Shown piece by piece: positions 5,874 through 17,177 of a stretch of 64,000 nucleotides of DNA. A program made the translations under genes and the position numbers. Numbering within the stretch: position 1 is the stretch's first letter; the number at the start of each line of letters is the position of its first letter. Under the pieces are notes generated by a model. The model did no database searches and was not told where the DNA came from. It saw only the letters and a program-made list of their open reading frames with translations. This DNA comes from Aequorivita vitellina (GTDB lineage: Bacteria; Bacteroidota; Bacteroidia; Flavobacteriales; Flavobacteriaceae), in NCBI RefSeq assembly GCF_022008365.1, contig NZ_JAIRBA010000001.1, positions 124,001 through 188,000 of the forward strand, in the 5' to 3' direction.

Positions 5874-6060
5874 CAATTATGCTACGGTTTTTTAAAGTTA
5901 TTGCACGCTGCGGTTTTTTCTTTTTTTGGAGTGATTATTGTGCCGTGGTAAGCACAAAATATTATTGTATTTTAGCTCCTCCTGCAAGGTTTCTAAAATT
6001 GCGGAGGTAGATTATTGTTATAAAATTTGGCAGGTGAGATTCCTGTCTTTAAAAGAATTT

Positions 6061-9000
6061 ATGAGCACATTTAACATCATCCAGCAAAAACTGGAGGAAT
6101 TTATTAAAAAATACTACACAAATGAGCTGATTAAAGGAACCATTCTTTTCTTTGCCATTGGGTTGCTGTATTTACTGCTCACACTACTTATTGAATATTT
6201 TTTATGGCTGAGCCCACTGGGAAGACAGTTGCTGTTTTGGGCTTTTATAATTGTTGAATTGGGCTTGTTTGTTAGGTTTATAGCTTTTCCGCTGGCGAAA
6301 CTTTTCAAACTTCAAACAGGAATTAATTACGAAGAAGCTTCAAAAATAATTGGCAACCATTTTCCTGAGGTTAGCGATAAATTGCTCAATGTAATTCAGC
6401 TAAATCAAAATCAACGTGAAAGTGAATTGCTTGCGGCAAGCATTGACCAAAAAGCCATCGAACTGAAACCTGTTCCTTTTAAAAGTGCCGTAAATTTTAA
6501 AAAGAATGCTAAATATCTAAAATACGCTGCCATTCCAATTTTCGTGTTTTTAGCATTTAGCGTCTTGGGCGGAATGGATATTTTTTCGAGCAGTTACAAA
6601 CGTGTTGTGCATTACGACACGGCATTTGAGCCACCTGCACCTTTCGCTTTTATTGTTATGAATAACGAATTGAACGCAGTAGAAAACAAACCTTTCACTT
6701 TAAAAATTAGAACACAGGGAAACACTATTCCCGAAAATGCGAGCATCAATTATAGTGGCGAAACTTATTATATGCAGCAGACAGCGCCCGGATTGTTTGA
6801 ATATACTTTTCAACAACCTGTGGAATCCATAGATTTCAATTTAAAGGCAAATAAAGTGAATTCGCGCAATTACACTTTAGATGTTGTAAAAACCCCCTCG
6901 CTACTTAATTTTGAAATGTATTTAGATTATCCTTCGTATACCGGCAAAAGAGATGAAACCTTGAAAAGCACCGGTAATGCTACTATTCCCGAGGGAACCA
7001 CAGTAAAATGGAACGTCGCTACAAAAAATACAAAGTTGGTAACTTTGAAAACTTCAGACACCGCAGTTTACTTCAAATCGAAAGGGGAGAACTTCAATTT
7101 TGAAAAGGGAATTTACCGCAAGCTTGATTATGCTATTACCACTTCCAACGAAAAATTGAAAGATTATGAAAATCTTGCTTTTACTTTAAATGTGGTGAAA
7201 GATCAGTTTCCTGAAATTGAGGTTCAATCAAAACAAGACAGCACGAATAGTCAGCGGGTTTTCTTTTTGGGACAGATTTCGGACGATTACGGACTCACAA
7301 AGTTGCGATTGGTCTATTTCCCCGAAGGCGACGAAAAGCAGGCTAAAACAGAAGCATTGCCACTAAACAAAACAAACTTTGACCAGTTTACATATGCTTT
7401 TCCGGGAAACCTTTCTTTGGAAGAAGGCGTTGCTTACGAGTACTATTTTGAAGTTTTTGACAACGACGCTATTCACAATTACAAATCTTCAAAATCCGGA
7501 GTTTATTCCTTCAGAAAACTCACAAAAGAAGAATTGGAAAATGAGCAGCTTCAAAATCAGCAAAACGCGATAAAAGGTTTAGACAAATCTTTGGAAGAAT
7601 TTAAGGACCAAAAACAAACTTTGGAGGAATTGTCGCGAACGCAAAAAGAGAAGAATGATCTTAATTACAACGACAAAAAGAAACTCCAAAATTTCCTAAA
7701 GCGCCAAAAGCAACAAGAGGAAATGATGAAGAATTTTTCGAAGGAATTGAAAGAAGAACTGCAAAATTTTCAACCTGAGAAGGAGGAAGAAGATCCGTTT
7801 AAAGAAGAACTTGAAAAGCGATTGGATGAAAATGAAGAACAGTTAAAAGAGAATGAAAAATTACTCGAGGAATTGGAAAAATTGCTTGAAAAAATTCAAA
7901 AGGAAGATTTAACTGAAAAACTTGAGGACCTTTCAAAACAAAACAAGAATCAAGAGAAGAATTTGGATCAATTACTTGAATTGACTAAACGATATTACGT
8001 TGAAAAGAAAGCTGAGAAATTAGCGGAGCAACTTTATGAATTGGGTGAAGAACAAGAAAAACTTGCAGACAAACCCTCCGAAGAAAACACCAAGGAGGCC
8101 CAGGAAGAATTAAATGAAAAGTTTGAGGAGCATAAAAAGCAAATGGAAGAGCTTCAAAAGGAAAACGAGAATTTAAAGAAACCTTTAGACATTCCAAAAG
8201 ATAAACCAAGCGAACAGCAGATTGATGAAGAGCAGGAAAAGGCCACTGATAAGTTGGGTGAAAAGAAACCTAATGAAGCGGGAAAAAATCAAAAAAAGGC
8301 TGGACAAAAAATGAAACAAATGGGGAAAGCAATGCAAATGCAAATGCAAGCTGGCCAAATGGAATCTATTGATGAAGACGTAAAAATGCTTCGACAGATA
8401 GTTGATAACTTGGTTGTTTTCTCTTTCCAGCAAGAAGATTTGATGGAAGTCTTCAAAAAGATTGAATACGGCAATCCTATTTTTGGTAAAAAATTGAATA
8501 TTCAAAACGATTTAAAAACCAATTTTGAACATATTGATGATAGCTTATTTGCGCTTTCATTACGTCAACCCTTGCTTGGAACACAAATAAATTCGTCGCT
8601 AACTGAAATTCAGTACAATATTGACAAATCTTTGGAGCGATTGGCACAAAACCAAACTCGGCAAGGCATTGGAAATCAGCAATATACAATTACAGGGGCT
8701 AATGATTTGGCTGTGTTATTAAGCGATATTTTAAGCAACATGCAAATGCAGATGGCTATGGCTATGGGTTCCGGCTCTGGAAAAGGTATGCCAAGCCCAG
8801 GTTCAGGTAGTGGAGAGGGTTTTCAGCTTCCGGATATTATTAAGAAACAAGAAAGCCTAAACGAACAGATGAAAGAGGGAATTGAGAAGGGTAAAAAGGG
8901 CTCAAAAGGTGAGGGCAAAGGAGAAGGCAAAGGAGAAGGTGAGGGTGAAGGGGAAAGCGAAGGAAGTGGCGATGGTAAAGGTGATAATGGAGAAAATGGA

Positions 9001-9474
9001 TCTGACGGTAAAAATGGCGATAAAGATGGGAAAGGAGAAAACGGAAATGGCGAGAGTGAAAAAATGAATGGCGAGCTTTATGAGATTTACAAGCAACAAC
9101 AGAACTTACGCCAACAACTTCAAGACAGATTAAACAAAGAGGGTTTAAAGGGAAATGGAGGTAATTTGTTGAGGAAAATGGAAGGAATTGAACAACAATT
9201 GTTGGACAAGGGTTTTAATGAAAATACGCTTCAGCAAATGCTTAATTTAAAATATGAATTCTTAAAATTGGATAATGCAGAACTAGAACAGGGGCAAGAA
9301 AATAGAAGAGAATCTAAAACAAATAAAAGAGATTATCACAACAATGTGCAGCTTGCTCCCGAGGACATAAAAAAATACTTTAATACTACCGAAATATTAA
9401 ACCGTGAGGCCTTACCTTTGCGCCAAGATTACAAAAATAAGGTGCAAGAATATTTTAAGGAGACCAATGATTGA
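6061..9474 (+). CDS. DUF4175 family large membrane/coiled-coil protein
   Basis: This 1137-residue protein has two N-terminal membrane segments and a third near residues 148-168. An extracytoplasmic region with beta-sandwich-like stretches follows, then a long coiled coil (about residues 490-760) rich in Glu, Lys and Gln. Later comes a methionine/glutamine-rich segment (QMQMQAGQMESIDEDVKMLR), a Gly/Glu/Lys low-complexity tract (bases about 8890-9060) and a conserved C-terminal domain. This is the architecture of the DUF4175 proteins of Bacteroidota, whose function is unknown. ATG 6061 is preferred over in-frame upstream codons because it directly precedes the first amphipathic helix and conserved residues. 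The ybeY gene overlaps its 3' end by 8 nt. Confidence 0.88.
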   Translation: MSTFNIIQQKLEEFIKKYYTNELIKGTILFFAIGLLYLLLTLLIEYFLWLSPLGRQLLFWAFIIVELGLFVRFIAFPLAKLFKLQTGINYEEASKIIGNHFPEVSDKLLNVIQLNQNQRESELLAASIDQKAIELKPVPFKSAVNFKKNAKYLKYAAIPIFVFLAFSVLGGMDIFSSSYKRVVHYDTAFEPPAPFAFIVMNNELNAVENKPFTLKIRTQGNTIPENASINYSGETYYMQQTAPGLFEYTFQQPVESIDFNLKANKVNSRNYTLDVVKTPSLLNFEMYLDYPSYTGKRDETLKSTGNATIPEGTTVKWNVATKNTKLVTLKTSDTAVYFKSKGENFNFEKGIYRKLDYAITTSNEKLKDYENLAFTLNVVKDQFPEIEVQSKQDSTNSQRVFFLGQISDDYGLTKLRLVYFPEGDEKQAKTEALPLNKTNFDQFTYAFPGNLSLEEGVAYEYYFEVFDNDAIHNYKSSKSGVYSFRKLTKEELENEQLQNQQNAIKGLDKSLEEFKDQKQTLEELSRTQKEKNDLNYNDKKKLQNFLKRQKQQEEMMKNFSKELKEELQNFQPEKEEEDPFKEELEKRLDENEEQLKENEKLLEELEKLLEKIQKEDLTEKLEDLSKQNKNQEKNLDQLLELTKRYYVEKKAEKLAEQLYELGEEQEKLADKPSEENTKEAQEELNEKFEEHKKQMEELQKENENLKKPLDIPKDKPSEQQIDEEQEKATDKLGEKKPNEAGKNQKKAGQKMKQMGKAMQMQMQAGQMESIDEDVKMLRQIVDNLVVFSFQQEDLMEVFKKIEYGNPIFGKKLNIQNDLKTNFEHIDDSLFALSLRQPLLGTQINSSLTEIQYNIDKSLERLAQNQTRQGIGNQQYTITGANDLAVLLSDILSNMQMQMAMAMGSGSGKGMPSPGSGSGEGFQLPDIIKKQESLNEQMKEGIEKGKKGSKGEGKGEGKGEGEGEGESEGSGDGKGDNGENGSDGKNGDKDGKGENGNGESEKMNGELYEIYKQQQNLRQQLQDRLNKEGLKGNGGNLLRKMEGIEQQLLDKGFNENTLQQMLNLKYEFLKLDNAELEQGQENRRESKTNKRDYHNNVQLAPEDIKKYFNTTEILNREALPLRQDYKNKVQEYFKETND

Positions 9475-9883
9475 GTTTAATTTTGAAACCGATTTTAGCT
9501 TAGAGAACACGCCAAAAATTATTAATTGGATTACGGATGTTATAATTTCTGAAGGTTGCGAATTGGGTGAAATCCTATACGTTTTTTGTGATGATGAGTA
9601 TTTACACAAATTAAATATTGAATTTTTAAATCACGATACACTTACTGATATTTTAAGTTTTGATTATGGTCTTGGGAAGCAAATTAACGGCGAAATTTTT
9701 ATTTCAGTGGAGCGTGTTGCAGACAATGCTACTGATTTTAAAACTAGTTTTACTGAAGAACTTCACCGGGTAATGATTCATGGGATTCTTCATTTCTGTG
9801 GATATAAAGACAAAACAGAAAGCGAGGAAACACAGATGCGCAAAAAGGAAAATGCAGCGCTTCGGTTGCTATCTAGTATTTAG
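9467..9883 (+). CDS. ybeY: Endoribonuclease YbeY (rRNA maturation factor)
   Basis: YbeY is a metal-dependent endoribonuclease that acts in 16S rRNA 3'-end maturation and ribosome quality control. This copy has 138 residues with the signature HGILHFCGYKDKTESEE near the C-terminus. The first two zinc-ligand histidines are present, but the position of the third (His in HGxLHxxGYDH) is Asp. I recall the same KDKT form in other Bacteroidota, so the enzyme is probably active. ATG 9467 is chosen because AAGGAG sits just upstream (9457-9462) and the product then begins MIEFNFETDF; it overlaps the DUF4175 gene by 8 nt, implying coupled translation. Confidence 0.93.
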   Translation: MIEFNFETDFSLENTPKIINWITDVIISEGCELGEILYVFCDDEYLHKLNIEFLNHDTLTDILSFDYGLGKQINGEIFISVERVADNATDFKTSFTEELHRVMIHGILHFCGYKDKTESEETQMRKKENAALRLLSSI

Positions 9884-9964: not shown

Positions 9965-9980
9965 TGTTCCACGTGGAACA
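9965..9980. promoter_or_regulatory. parS: parS site (ParB-binding), copy 1
   Basis: TGTTCCACGTGGAACA is a perfect 16-bp palindrome. It fits the widely conserved bacterial parS consensus TGTTTCACGTGAAACA, with symmetric T-to-C and A-to-G changes at positions 5 and 12. It lies just upstream of mnmG and overlaps the upstream extension of the mnmG frame. A second copy follows mnmG. ParB bound here would nucleate the segregation complex; parA and parB are not in the window. Confidence 0.88.
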
Positions 9981-9993
9981 ATGGAGAATGAAT

Positions 9994-11865
9994 ATGTTTC
10001 AAGAAGAATATGATGTTATAGTTGTTGGTGGTGGTCACGCAGGTTCTGAAGCTGCCGCTGCTGCAGCAAATATGGGTTCCAAAACGCTTTTAGTTACCAT
10101 GAACCTGCAAAATATAGCTCAAATGAGTTGTAATCCTGCTATGGGGGGTATTGCCAAAGGACAGATTGTTCGCGAAATTGATGCTATGGGTGGTTACAGT
10201 GGAATTGTATCTGATAAAACCGCTATCCAGTTTAAAATGTTGAACAAGTCCAAAGGTCCCGCAATGTGGAGTCCACGTGTTCAAAGTGACCGGATGCGAT
10301 TTGCCGAAACCTGGAGATTAATGCTAGAGGGCACTCCAAATTTAGATTTTTATCAAGAAATGATTTCGGGCATAATTTCTGAAAATGGAATAATAAAAGG
10401 AGTTCGAACTTCTCTTGGTTTAGAAATAAGAGGGAAAAGTGTTGTCTTGACAAATGGAACTTTTTTAAATGGATTAATTCACATTGGTGAAAAGCAATTT
10501 GGCGGAGGCCGTGCGGGTGAAAAAGCTTCAACAGGAATAACAAAGGATTTAATTGATTTAGGTTTTGAAGCAGGAAGAATGAAAACCGGAACGCCCCCAA
10601 GAGTCGATGGCCGTTCGTTGGATTTCGCCAAAATGATTGAGCAACCGGGTGATGCAATTCCTGAGAAATTTTCATATTCTGATGAAACCACAACTTTAAA
10701 AAAGCAACGTTCCTGCCATATGAGCTATACCAGTCTCGATGTTCACGATATTTTGCGTGAAGGTTTTGATAGGTCGCCAATGTTTAATGGCTCAATTCAA
10801 AGTTTAGGACCAAGATACTGTCCTTCCATTGAAGATAAAATTAATCGCTTTGCCGATAAAGAAAGACATCAACTGTTTGTTGAACCTGAAGGCTGGGATA
10901 CTGTAGAGTATTATATTAATGGTTTTTCTACTTCTTTGCCAGAAGATATTCAGTTTAAAGCATTGAGAAAAGTTGCTGGTTTTGAAAAGGTAAAATTGTT
11001 CCGTCCAGGTTATGCTATTGAATACGATTACTTCCCACCAACACAGTTAGAACATACCCTTGAAACCAAATTGGTTTCCGGACTTTATTTCGCAGGACAA
11101 ATTAACGGTACTACGGGTTATGAAGAAGCGGCGTCGCAAGGATTAATGGCCGGAATTAACGCACATTTAAAGGTGCATGAAAAGGAAGCCTTTATTTTAC
11201 AACGGAATGAAGCCTATATTGGGGTATTAATCGATGATCTTATTACAAAAGGAACAGAAGAACCGTACCGAATGTTTACATCGCGAGCCGAATACAGAAC
11301 ATTACTTCGTCAAGATAATGCAGATTTTAGATTAACGCCTAAATCTTTTGACATTGGCTTGGCTAGTGAAAAACGTATGCGCAAAATGGAAGAGAAACGT
11401 GAAAAGTCTGACGCATTTGTGCAGTTCTTCAAAGACACGAGTGTTGCGCCCGATGAAATAAATCCTATTTTTAAAGAACGAGATTCTGCTTTGGTTCAAC
11501 AGAGCGATAAAATGTTTAAATTCTTTTCGCGTCCTGAAGTGAATATGGAAGATATGAAAACAGTGGCTTCAGTTAAAAAATTTATCGACGAAAATGAATT
11601 GGATGATGAAATGATTCAGCAAGCCGAGATTCAAGTAAAATACTCGGGTTATATAGCGAAAGAAAAAAACAATGCCGATAAACTGAACAGATTGGAAGGA
11701 TTGAAAATCCCAGAAAGCTTTGATTATTCAAAATTAAAATCACTTTCTTATGAAGCGAGAGAGAAACTTACAAAAATAAAACCTGCAACTGTTTCGCAAG
11801 CATCGCGTATAAGCGGCGTTTCTCCAAATGATGTATCGGTGCTTCTAGTATATATGGGACGTTAG
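9994..11865 (+). CDS. mnmG: tRNA uridine-5-carboxymethylaminomethyl modification enzyme MnmG (GidA)
   Basis: Together with MnmE, MnmG builds the cmnm5 group on the wobble uridine of certain tRNAs, using FAD and NADH. The 623-residue protein has the N-terminal FAD-binding motif GGGHAG (residues 12-17), the MSCNPAMGGIAKGQIVREID block, the KTGTPPRVDGR block and the helical C-terminal domain ending VSPNDVSVLLVYMGR. ATG 9994 is chosen because GGAGA lies 6-10 nt upstream and the start MFQEEYDVIVVGGGHAG matches the family. A longer frame from 9964 would translate through the parS palindrome. Two parS sites bracket the gene. Confidence 0.97.
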   Translation: MFQEEYDVIVVGGGHAGSEAAAAAANMGSKTLLVTMNLQNIAQMSCNPAMGGIAKGQIVREIDAMGGYSGIVSDKTAIQFKMLNKSKGPAMWSPRVQSDRMRFAETWRLMLEGTPNLDFYQEMISGIISENGIIKGVRTSLGLEIRGKSVVLTNGTFLNGLIHIGEKQFGGGRAGEKASTGITKDLIDLGFEAGRMKTGTPPRVDGRSLDFAKMIEQPGDAIPEKFSYSDETTTLKKQRSCHMSYTSLDVHDILREGFDRSPMFNGSIQSLGPRYCPSIEDKINRFADKERHQLFVEPEGWDTVEYYINGFSTSLPEDIQFKALRKVAGFEKVKLFRPGYAIEYDYFPPTQLEHTLETKLVSGLYFAGQINGTTGYEEAASQGLMAGINAHLKVHEKEAFILQRNEAYIGVLIDDLITKGTEEPYRMFTSRAEYRTLLRQDNADFRLTPKSFDIGLASEKRMRKMEEKREKSDAFVQFFKDTSVAPDEINPIFKERDSALVQQSDKMFKFFSRPEVNMEDMKTVASVKKFIDENELDDEMIQQAEIQVKYSGYIAKEKNNADKLNRLEGLKIPESFDYSKLKSLSYEAREKLTKIKPATVSQASRISGVSPNDVSVLLVYMGR

Positions 11866-11871
11866 CGTTGT

Positions 11872-11887
11872 TGTTTCACGTGGAACA
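11872..11887. promoter_or_regulatory. parS: parS site (ParB-binding), copy 2
   Basis: TGTTTCACGTGGAACA matches the parS consensus at every conserved position, with one half-site in the T form and the other in the G form. It begins 7 nt after the mnmG stop codon and is 1.9 kb from copy 1, in the same intergenic-style position on the other side of the gene. Confidence 0.88.
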
Positions 11888-11941: not shown

Positions 11942-12787
11942 TTGAAAAATCACGAAAAAATATATTTATCAGTTAAGGACAATTTAGTTACTGGCGAAGT
12001 TTTTAATCTAGTATGTAATGCTGAGATGGATTTTTTAAGAACCACTCCAATGCCGAAATCTGAAGATCTTCCCTTGTATTATGAAAGTGATGAATACATT
12101 TCGCATACTGATAAAAAAAAGGGCTTATTTTCATTTTTATATCAACTCGTGAAAAAGTGGTCACTTCAAATGAAGGTTAAGTTAATACTTGAACAAACTG
12201 GAACCATTGGATTATTACTAGATGTTGGTGCCGGAACCGGAGATTTTTTAAGAGCTGCTAAAGAAAATGGTTGGGCGGTGAATGGCATGGAACCAAACAG
12301 AAATGCTTCTAAATTGGCATTGGAAAAAGGAATACATTTAAAATCCTCACTAAAACATTTTGAGGGAAAACAATTTGATGTAATAACTCTTTGGCATGTT
12401 TTGGAACATATTCCTAATTTGGATGAAACCGTTTTAGCACTTTCGAAGTTAGTTAAACCTGACGGAGTATTGATTATTGCAGTTCCAAATTTTAAAAGTT
12501 ACGATGCCGATCATTACGGAATGTTTTGGGCGGCTTATGATGCACCTCGCCATCTCTGGCATTTTTCTAAAAAATCTATTCAAAATATTTTTTCAAAGGC
12601 TTTTATTTTAGAAAAAACGAAACCTATGATTTTTGATTCGTTTTATGTAAGTCTACTTTCTGAAAAGTATATTTCTGGAAGAAAATTTTCGCTAAACGCG
12701 CTTTGGGTTGGATTAGTATCAAATTTAAAGGCAATTCAATCAAAGGAGTATTCTTCGCATATTTATTGCTTTAGAAAGACAAAATAA
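11942..12787 (+). CDS. Class I SAM-dependent methyltransferase
   Basis: This is a 281-residue methyltransferase of unknown substrate. The SAM-binding motif LLLDVGAGTGDFLRAA is followed by the acidic loop MEPN and motif FDVITLWHVLEHIPN, as in MetW/UbiE-like families. Related flavobacterial proteins usually start with a CxxC...CxxC zinc ribbon followed by a LSVKD-like stretch. Here only IYLSVKDNLVTGEVF remains recognisable and the cysteine pairs are incomplete. The start is uncertain: TTG 11942 is the only standard start near the family N-terminus, but the frame is open upstream through the parS site and a Cys codon lies just before the TTG. Confidence in the family is high, in the start low. 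Confidence 0.82.
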   Translation: MKNHEKIYLSVKDNLVTGEVFNLVCNAEMDFLRTTPMPKSEDLPLYYESDEYISHTDKKKGLFSFLYQLVKKWSLQMKVKLILEQTGTIGLLLDVGAGTGDFLRAAKENGWAVNGMEPNRNASKLALEKGIHLKSSLKHFEGKQFDVITLWHVLEHIPNLDETVLALSKLVKPDGVLIIAVPNFKSYDADHYGMFWAAYDAPRHLWHFSKKSIQNIFSKAFILEKTKPMIFDSFYVSLLSEKYISGRKFSLNALWVGLVSNLKAIQSKEYSSHIYCFRKTK

Positions 12788-15611: not shown

Positions 15612-17177
15612 ATGAAACTAAATAAAATCTTTCTCTTTATACTGTTGCTGGCCTGCAGTATTAGTTTTGCCCAAGTGGGTAAAAAACAAAATAAAAGGCT
15701 GAACACCAAAGAAATTCAGGTTGTTGATTCTATTAAAGTGACAAAAATTTCGGAAGAATTACCTGCAACTGTAGTGGCTACTTCTTTTAAAGATAGCATT
15801 GTTTATGATCTTCAAGATATGGCCTTGGCACGTAAAAAAGACAGCTTATGGCTAAAGGAACTTTACAAATCTGATCTTTTTGAAGACATATATAACAGTG
15901 TTACAAACCAGAATTTTGACCCAGTAGATTACGATGAACTCCCTACTGAATTGCTCAAGCAACGCTTAAAAGAGCTAGATGCGCGTACGCCGTTTAAAGT
16001 TGAATACAATCCTTCATTAGAAAGTGTTATTAAGCAATACTTAAAAAATCGCCGCAGAGGATTAGAGCGTTTAATGGGGCTTAGTGAATTTTATTTCCCG
16101 TTGTTTGAACAGGAATTAGATAAGCATAACCTACCCTTGGAACTAAAATATTTAGCCGTAATTGAATCGGCATTAAATCCGAAGGCTCGGTCTCGAGTTG
16201 GGGCTACGGGGCTTTGGCAATTTATGTTCCCAACTGGTAAAATGTTTGGACTTGATGTAAGTTCTTATGTTGATGAGCGTTCAGACCCGTATTTAGCTAC
16301 AGAAGCTGCGTGTAAATATTTAAAAAGCTTAAACAACAGTTTTAACGATTGGGATTTAGCACTTGCAGCCTACAATTCGGGTCCTGGAAATGTTTCAAAG
16401 GCAATTCGTCGTTCGGGCGGAGAGACAGATTATTGGAGTCTTCGCAGCTTTCTTCCACGTGAAACTGCTGGTTATGTGCCTGCGTTTTTAGCAACGATGT
16501 ACATTTTTGAATACGCACAGGAACACGGCTTTAAAAAACAATCGGCACGAATTCCATTTGTAGCTACAGATACCATTCGCGTTAAGCAACAAATTACATT
16601 AGATCAAGTTGCAAAACTCACCAATCTTGATAAAGAAGAGCTTGAGTTTCTTAACCCTTCCTATAAGTTGGGAATTATTCCGGTTATAAAAAATGAAAAC
16701 TATGTATTGCGACTTCCGCTAACGGCAGTAGGCACATTTGTAACCAACGAAGATGCAATATATACATTTGCACAAATAGAGCAGGAGGAAGCTGAAAAAC
16801 CACTTCCCGAATTATACGAGCAACCAGAGAAACTACGTTATCGTGTAAAAAGAGGGGATTATTTGGGAAGAATTGCTGAAAGATATGGCGTAGGCGTTAG
16901 CCAAATTAGAAGATGGAATGGCATGCGCAATAACACAGTAAAAGTGGGTCAGAATTTAATTATTTACCCCCGAAAAAGTACGCAAGATATTGCCAGAAAC
17001 ACGCCGGTGCAATCCAGTAATACTTCAGATAGAACCTATACCGTACGCAATGGCGATTCCTTGTGGAGCATTTCGCAAAAATTTCCTGGAGTTTCGGTCC
17101 AAAATATCAAAAAATGGAACGATATTAGTGGTACTAACTTAAAGCCTGGAACTAAACTTAAAATTCACAAAGGATAG
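15612..17177 (+). CDS. Membrane-bound lytic murein transglycosylase (MltD-like) with two LysM domains
   Basis: This 521-residue secreted enzyme cleaves peptidoglycan glycan strands. It has a signal peptide (residues 1-20, ending SISFA). An SLT domain (about 165-300) follows with the catalytic Glu at residue 185 in YLAVIESALNPKARSRVGAT, then GLWQFM and ALAAYNSGPGNV. Two LysM domains (about 406-453 and 473-519) each begin with the Y-V-x-x-G-D pattern. This layout matches MltD, except that the LysM count varies in the family. It lies directly upstream of a DUF4837 lipoprotein gene (21-nt gap), so the two may be co-transcribed. Confidence 0.93.
   Translation: MKLNKIFLFILLLACSISFAQVGKKQNKRLNTKEIQVVDSIKVTKISEELPATVVATSFKDSIVYDLQDMALARKKDSLWLKELYKSDLFEDIYNSVTNQNFDPVDYDELPTELLKQRLKELDARTPFKVEYNPSLESVIKQYLKNRRRGLERLMGLSEFYFPLFEQELDKHNLPLELKYLAVIESALNPKARSRVGATGLWQFMFPTGKMFGLDVSSYVDERSDPYLATEAACKYLKSLNNSFNDWDLALAAYNSGPGNVSKAIRRSGGETDYWSLRSFLPRETAGYVPAFLATMYIFEYAQEHGFKKQSARIPFVATDTIRVKQQITLDQVAKLTNLDKEELEFLNPSYKLGIIPVIKNENYVLRLPLTAVGTFVTNEDAIYTFAQIEQEEAEKPLPELYEQPEKLRYRVKRGDYLGRIAERYGVGVSQIRRWNGMRNNTVKVGQNLIIYPRKSTQDIARNTPVQSSNTSDRTYTVRNGDSLWSISQKFPGVSVQNIKKWNDISGTNLKPGTKLKIHKG

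Follow-up and report, generated by a model that had tools for sequence, protein, structure and literature searches.

Two parS sites flanking mnmG: a very probable origin-proximal chromosomal centromere in Aequorivita vitellina

mnmG and its two flanking palindromes

The window, by which we mean the whole stretch of 64,000 nucleotides analysed here (C109:124001-188000), belongs to a draft genome of 3,633,834 bases in 197 contigs. At 9994..11865 on its forward strand lies a gene for a protein of 623 residues that matches TIGR00136 (833 bits against a cut-off of 525) and the GIDA family PF01134, a secure sequence-based assignment to mnmG (gidA), whose product is the tRNA uridine-5-carboxymethylaminomethyl(34) synthesis enzyme. 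Two sites on the same strand enclose this gene. Site 1 (9965..9980), TGTTCCACGTGGAACA, is a perfect palindrome 13 bases 5' of the mnmG ATG, and site 2 (11872..11887), TGTTTCACGTGGAACA, is positioned 6 bases 3' of the stop codon. The upstream neighbour of mnmG is ybeY, for an rRNA maturation RNase (9404..9883, forward strand, start codon approximate; TIGR00043 over its cut-off), and the downstream neighbour is a gene of SAM methyltransferase type (11942..12787, forward strand, start codon approximate; PF13489). Directly upstream of ybeY-mnmG is an open reading frame of 1178 residues with a DUF4175 match (5938-9474), orthologues of which, 84-87% identical, occupy the equivalent position in the related genomes G001 and G016. 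An identification of this frame as SMC was rejected, since it scored only 22.7 bits where the cut-off is 729 and Pfam assigns it to DUF4175.

Both sites are 16-bp palindromes of the TGTTNCACGTGAAACA type and match TGTTYCACGTGRAACA without a mismatch, in agreement with the preliminary description, which had recognised the ParB-binding consensus in both and had placed them on the two sides of a single gene. That description also judged a chance match very unlikely, and base composition leads to the same view, with 6e-5 exact matches expected in the window and 0.003 genome-wide. This expectation was used because a shuffle control that allowed up to three mismatches (three matches, with 9 of 100 shuffles reaching three) is uninformative for exact sites. 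The 3.63-Mb draft contains two exact parS-type sites, both at this one locus and 1.9 kb apart, compared with none for the reversed control, so that the whole-genome scan proposed earlier as a check reveals no scattering of copies. When up to two mismatches are allowed, the draft has five sites, the two exact ones and three with two mismatches, and the reversed control also gives three. A third parS-like site in the window (16451-16466, two mismatches) lies inside an MltD-type lytic transglycosylase gene and recurs as TCTTCCACGTGAAACA in some relatives. This stretch codes for the conserved residues LPRETAGY, and its codons vary much like the other conserved codons of the gene, which is present in 51 of 80 related loci, so that we dismissed the site as a codon coincidence.

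Conservation of the sites beside mnmG

The pair is real and conserved. Within the genus, 25 of 28 genomes (our own included) carry two exact sites and two carry one; the single genome with no site is 69% complete, and mnmG was not found there. Over genus and order together, an exact site is present in 46 of 59 genomes. For 20 genomes of the order, our own among them, site and mnmG coordinates were both listed, and in every one an exact site lies within 1 kb of mnmG, on both sides in 7, upstream only in 11 and downstream only in 2. The flanks of mnmG were checked in 10 of the 13 genomes lacking an exact site, the other three being two in which mnmG was not found and one genome of 0.3 Mb: eight have a site with one mismatch and two have only sites with two mismatches. 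In G045 and G057 the single mismatch falls in the centre of the site, with ACAT replacing ACGT.

A similar pattern is seen in the best 80 of 572 related mnmG loci, which are close relatives because only the best 80 were kept, and which partly overlap the same-genus genomes; the six closest are from Aequorivita and are 84-92% identical. Among these best 80, an exact site lies within 200 bp of mnmG upstream in 72 and downstream in 34, and with up to one mismatch and a distance of up to 250 bp a site is found upstream in all 80 and additionally downstream in 68. Beyond 1 kb from mnmG, the 1.36 Mb of these best 80 loci contained no exact site. Four Flavobacterium loci (L279, L287, L289 and L309) have arrays of 6-8 parS-type sites (0-1 mismatch) upstream of mnmG, at a spacing of ~40-140 bp. 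Downstream of mnmG in L210 (G046), AGTTTCACGTGAAACT occurs twice within ~250 bases, with both outer bases changed symmetrically, and this sequence perhaps reflects a shifted ParB preference.

Across the phylum, as defined by GTDB, the 14-bp core of the site is present in 67 of 70 sampled genomes and absent from three (reversed control: 2 of 70), and occurs exactly twice in 48 of the 70. Among the genomes listed, 29 from this sample could be joined to mnmG, our own and G039 excluded (G053 has a listed site, yet lay outside the mnmG search). They represent eight families, with 6 genomes from our own family, 8 from six families of the same class, and 15 from one family of another class. A site lies within 1 kb of mnmG in 27 of these 29, with sites on both sides in at least 18, and the linkage is found in seven of the eight families. 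The exceptions are G094 and G121, members of one family within our own class: mnmG and their listed parS-core sites fall on different contigs, and the linkage seems to be broken there. The accessible parts of the literature searched yielded no published statement that parS brackets mnmG in Bacteroidota; the main parS survey, Livny et al. 2007, lay outside that search, and its tables may already contain the layout.

The recurrence of mnmG bracketing across several families, and the position of site 1 only 13 bases from the start codon, would also fit a role in which ParB at both sites chiefly controls transcription of mnmG, the bracket being kept because it links tRNA modification with the cell cycle. 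We regard this as very improbable, because exact sites are one-sided in many of the 20 genomes counted above, and because two genomes, G094 and G121, carry their sites away from mnmG.

Replication origin relative to parS, dnaA and parB

The preliminary description suggested that the replication origin may be near. As our genome is a draft that provides skew at the contig level only, the position of its origin was inferred from its relatives. On our own contig, C109, cumulative skew is rather flat to ~120 kb and then rises steadily. For five complete relatives, a two-arm model was fitted to the skew of 20-30 sampled stretches per chromosome, with skew values clipped at 0.12 and, in G037, the overlapping stretch L141 omitted. 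The fitted origin is 24-70 kb from parS in four of the five and 212 kb from it in the fifth, equivalent to 0.8-5.8% of the chromosome, and in all five it is 29-47% of the chromosome from dnaA and 30-45% from parB. parS falls within the near-best range (no more than 3% off the best score) in three of the five, ~12 kb outside it in G001 and 212 kb outside it in G002. With denser sampling, the local skew minimum is separated from parS by 21 kb in G037 and by ~25 kb in G016.

As rRNA genes should be directed away from the origin, their orientation provides a test that is independent of skew. In nine genomes (three of them with rounded chromosome lengths), 18 of 19 rRNA genes are directed away from parS, the one wrong-way gene being in G060. 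In the six genomes in which dnaA and parB were also placed, all 12 rRNA genes lead away from parS, 2 of 12 from dnaA and 2 of 12 from parB, and p-values from such counts overstate independence because the genomes are related. G109 and G120 gave zero rRNA matches, and a broken rRNA match in G037 was counted as one gene. In G046 and G090, which have no exact parS and are outside these counts, rRNA direction agrees with mnmG taken as the origin. Skew and rRNA orientation in complete relatives thus bear out the suggested nearness of the origin, and it is on these relatives, together with the change of skew slope on C109, that we call the parS pair origin-proximal.

In all six complete relatives (G001, G002, G016, G017, G037 and G048, four of them from one genus), dnaA lies 28-49% of the chromosome from parS, as does parB, suggesting that both are in the terminus half. 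That dnaA and parAB lie in this distant half in the relatives explains why the preliminary description, correctly, reported no dnaA, parA or parB in the window; in our draft, contig C122 carries dnaA and C116 carries parA-parB.

An AT-rich gap that precedes rpiB and lies ~15 kb upstream of mnmG (C109:118254-119278; ~1 kb, 74% AT, ~5 kb left of the window) is a candidate for oriC; it is bordered on the side opposite rpiB by a gene that we take to be RNase R-like. The gap was located through gene order and the skew minimum, which is at the rpiB gap in G037 and ~9-10 kb off in G016, a genome largely collinear with C109. A search of 22 genomes located rpiB in 21, at 0.2-85 kb from mnmG or parS in 18, at 419 kb in one and on another contig in two. 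In the zones surrounding the skew minima of G016 and G037, three strict DnaA boxes never fall within 600 bases of one another, and looser sets of boxes cluster at multiple places. In 20 rpiB-upstream regions there are 7 strict boxes against 1.4 in shuffles, and the DnaA-like word TTATYAACA, picked after viewing three of the same 20 regions, occurs 20 times against 1.7 in shuffles, being present in 12 regions and absent from 8. When DnaA-like clusters are ranked, the rpiB gap comes first in G037, ties with the dnaA promoter in our own genome, ties with three others in G016 and is outside the first six in G001. Other Flavobacteriaceae, the family of the present genome, have origins predicted by Ori-Finder 2022: the available text of the respective papers places the origin next to rpiB in 6 of 7 circular chromosomes of Tenacibaculum (PMC9864904), and at mnmG in Mariniflexile (PMC11278836) and Algorimicrobium (PMC12843772), with no mention in that text of parS sites for the predicted oriC. 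We note that the text of PMC11278836, in the part available, puts oriC at the mnmG region and ter at leuB, and that its Figure 3 legend has the two reversed.

In our own genome the region upstream of dnaA holds three DnaA-box-like words, a number equal to that in the rpiB gap. As parS clusters may sit some distance from oriC, the sites could be true parS while replication starts at dnaA, the mnmG locus then being a remote ParB site. Such an arrangement is highly implausible, given that dnaA is far from the skew-derived origin in five of five relatives, that only two of the 12 rRNA genes point away from dnaA, and that no further exact sites were found in the draft. The available part of a Prevotella study describes origins commonly far from dnaA in Bacteroidetes (PMC4755523).

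ParB, ParA and comparison with known parS systems

Our reading of the pair as parS presupposes a ParB homologue, and both ParB and ParA are encoded in the genome. The ParB protein (C116, 299 residues) has ParB_N, HTH_ParB and ParB_C domains as well as the motifs GERR and ENIQR, and it matches ParB and Spo0J chains of known structure; parA adjoins parB on its upstream side. When aligned by counting from the GK-R motif, and not by structure, the protein has DNA-binding residues of the parS type, namely the equivalents of Caulobacter Q162, G170, K171, R173, N178, G201 and R204, with N in place of S172, and also Y179 and K184 at the equivalent positions. R173 and G201 are described, in the available part of the source, as conserved in all ParB and altered in Noc (PMC7383237). 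The present protein has R and G there and not the Q173/R201-type residues of Noc, and its top NCBIfam score, 239.5 to the Noc model TIGR04285, is under the cut-off of 315.

The two exact sites stand together, no more than 5.8% of the chromosome from the skew origin in five of five complete relatives, in a genome with ParA and ParB genes and no scattered exact copies, and these observations support the earlier proposal of a chromosomal centromere. It is very probable that the two sites form a chromosomal parS centromere, ParB-loaded, ParA-segregated and origin-proximal. ParB, encoded beside ParA elsewhere on the chromosome, would recognise each 16-bp palindrome and load there, and would spread across mnmG and its neighbour genes, while ParA would separate the newly replicated origin regions. 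Both palindromes can also be folded as RNA (a hairpin of 6-9 bp with the loop ACGU; z-scores -1.6 and -2.3), and site 1 directly precedes the mnmG start codon, but that they are RNA hairpins or a terminator regulating mnmG expression, with the parS match incidental, is the least probable of the explanations considered and close to negligible: in the best 80 of 572 loci the ACGT centre, the would-be loop, is invariant at all 80 upstream and all 73 downstream sites (selected with up to two mismatches, which favours conservation; the order genomes G045 and G057, counted separately from these loci, have ACAT as noted above), the sole internal variation of these named-locus sites is C/T at position 5 and G/A at position 12, the variant TGTTCCACGTGAAACA, which would place a C-A mismatch in the RNA stem, makes up 13 of the 34 exact sites downstream and 4 of the 89 upstream, and some genomes have upstream arrays or one-sided sites.

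Loading of SMC-ScpAB is the other common job of parS. In nine Flavobacteriales, comprising our own draft and eight complete single-contig genomes, a search for SMC and ScpA gave neither a match to ScpA nor an SMC match above the cut-off, whereas it found ScpA and an SMC above the cut-off in four of four genomes of the phylum outside this order. As the SMC and ScpA genes were not found, SMC-ScpAB loading at these parS sites is unlikely, and in this lineage parS probably has ParA, and not SMC-ScpAB, as its partner. In G109 (C1:416677-420188) the smc frame consists of two overlapping pieces, one with two internal TGA codons, a break that is a frameshift or a sequence error. Tentatively, and as a proposal that we rate as somewhat less than probable, the mnmG parS bracket of Flavobacteriales may be a condensin-free centromere, in which two-site ParB and ParA segregate the origin without SMC-ScpAB while both dnaA and parAB stay in the half distant from parS; the linkage of parS with mnmG, which is also present in relatives bearing SMC-ScpAB, would then predate and have outlasted the loss of SMC-ScpAB. 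The lineage could allow ParABS to be studied without SMC-ScpAB, which would separate the two jobs of parS. In Flavobacteriales and their relatives, where dnaA, ordinarily taken as the marker, misleads, parS beside mnmG could also serve to mark the origin region by sequence.

As an element, the parS pair is of a known kind. What is less familiar is that it sits beside mnmG in seven of the eight families joined, that it is far from parAB and dnaA, and that SMC-ScpAB is missing. Within the same phylum, Bacteroides caecimuris and Muribaculum intestinale are among the gut bacteria in which parS clusters were mapped together with Hi-C; in the available part of that work, the origin was determined from parS, GC skew and read coverage and was not systematically at dnaA, and in these two species parS was at the origin and no known condensin was found (PMC10197239). 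The flanked gene is mnmG in our case, whereas the available part of PMC10197239 names none for its parS clusters. The resemblance to the ParABS system of P. aeruginosa, as given in the available part of PMC4368675, extends to the sequence itself, TGTTCCACGTGGAACA being that of both parS2 and parS3 and therefore identical to site 1. parA is adjacent to parB here as well, and the sites are near the origin, in our case in relatives. Unlike the P. aeruginosa system, ScpA and SMC over the cut-off were not found in the nine Flavobacteriales searched, the sites are far from parAB (28-49% of the chromosome in six of six complete relatives), and there are just two exact sites, which bracket mnmG.
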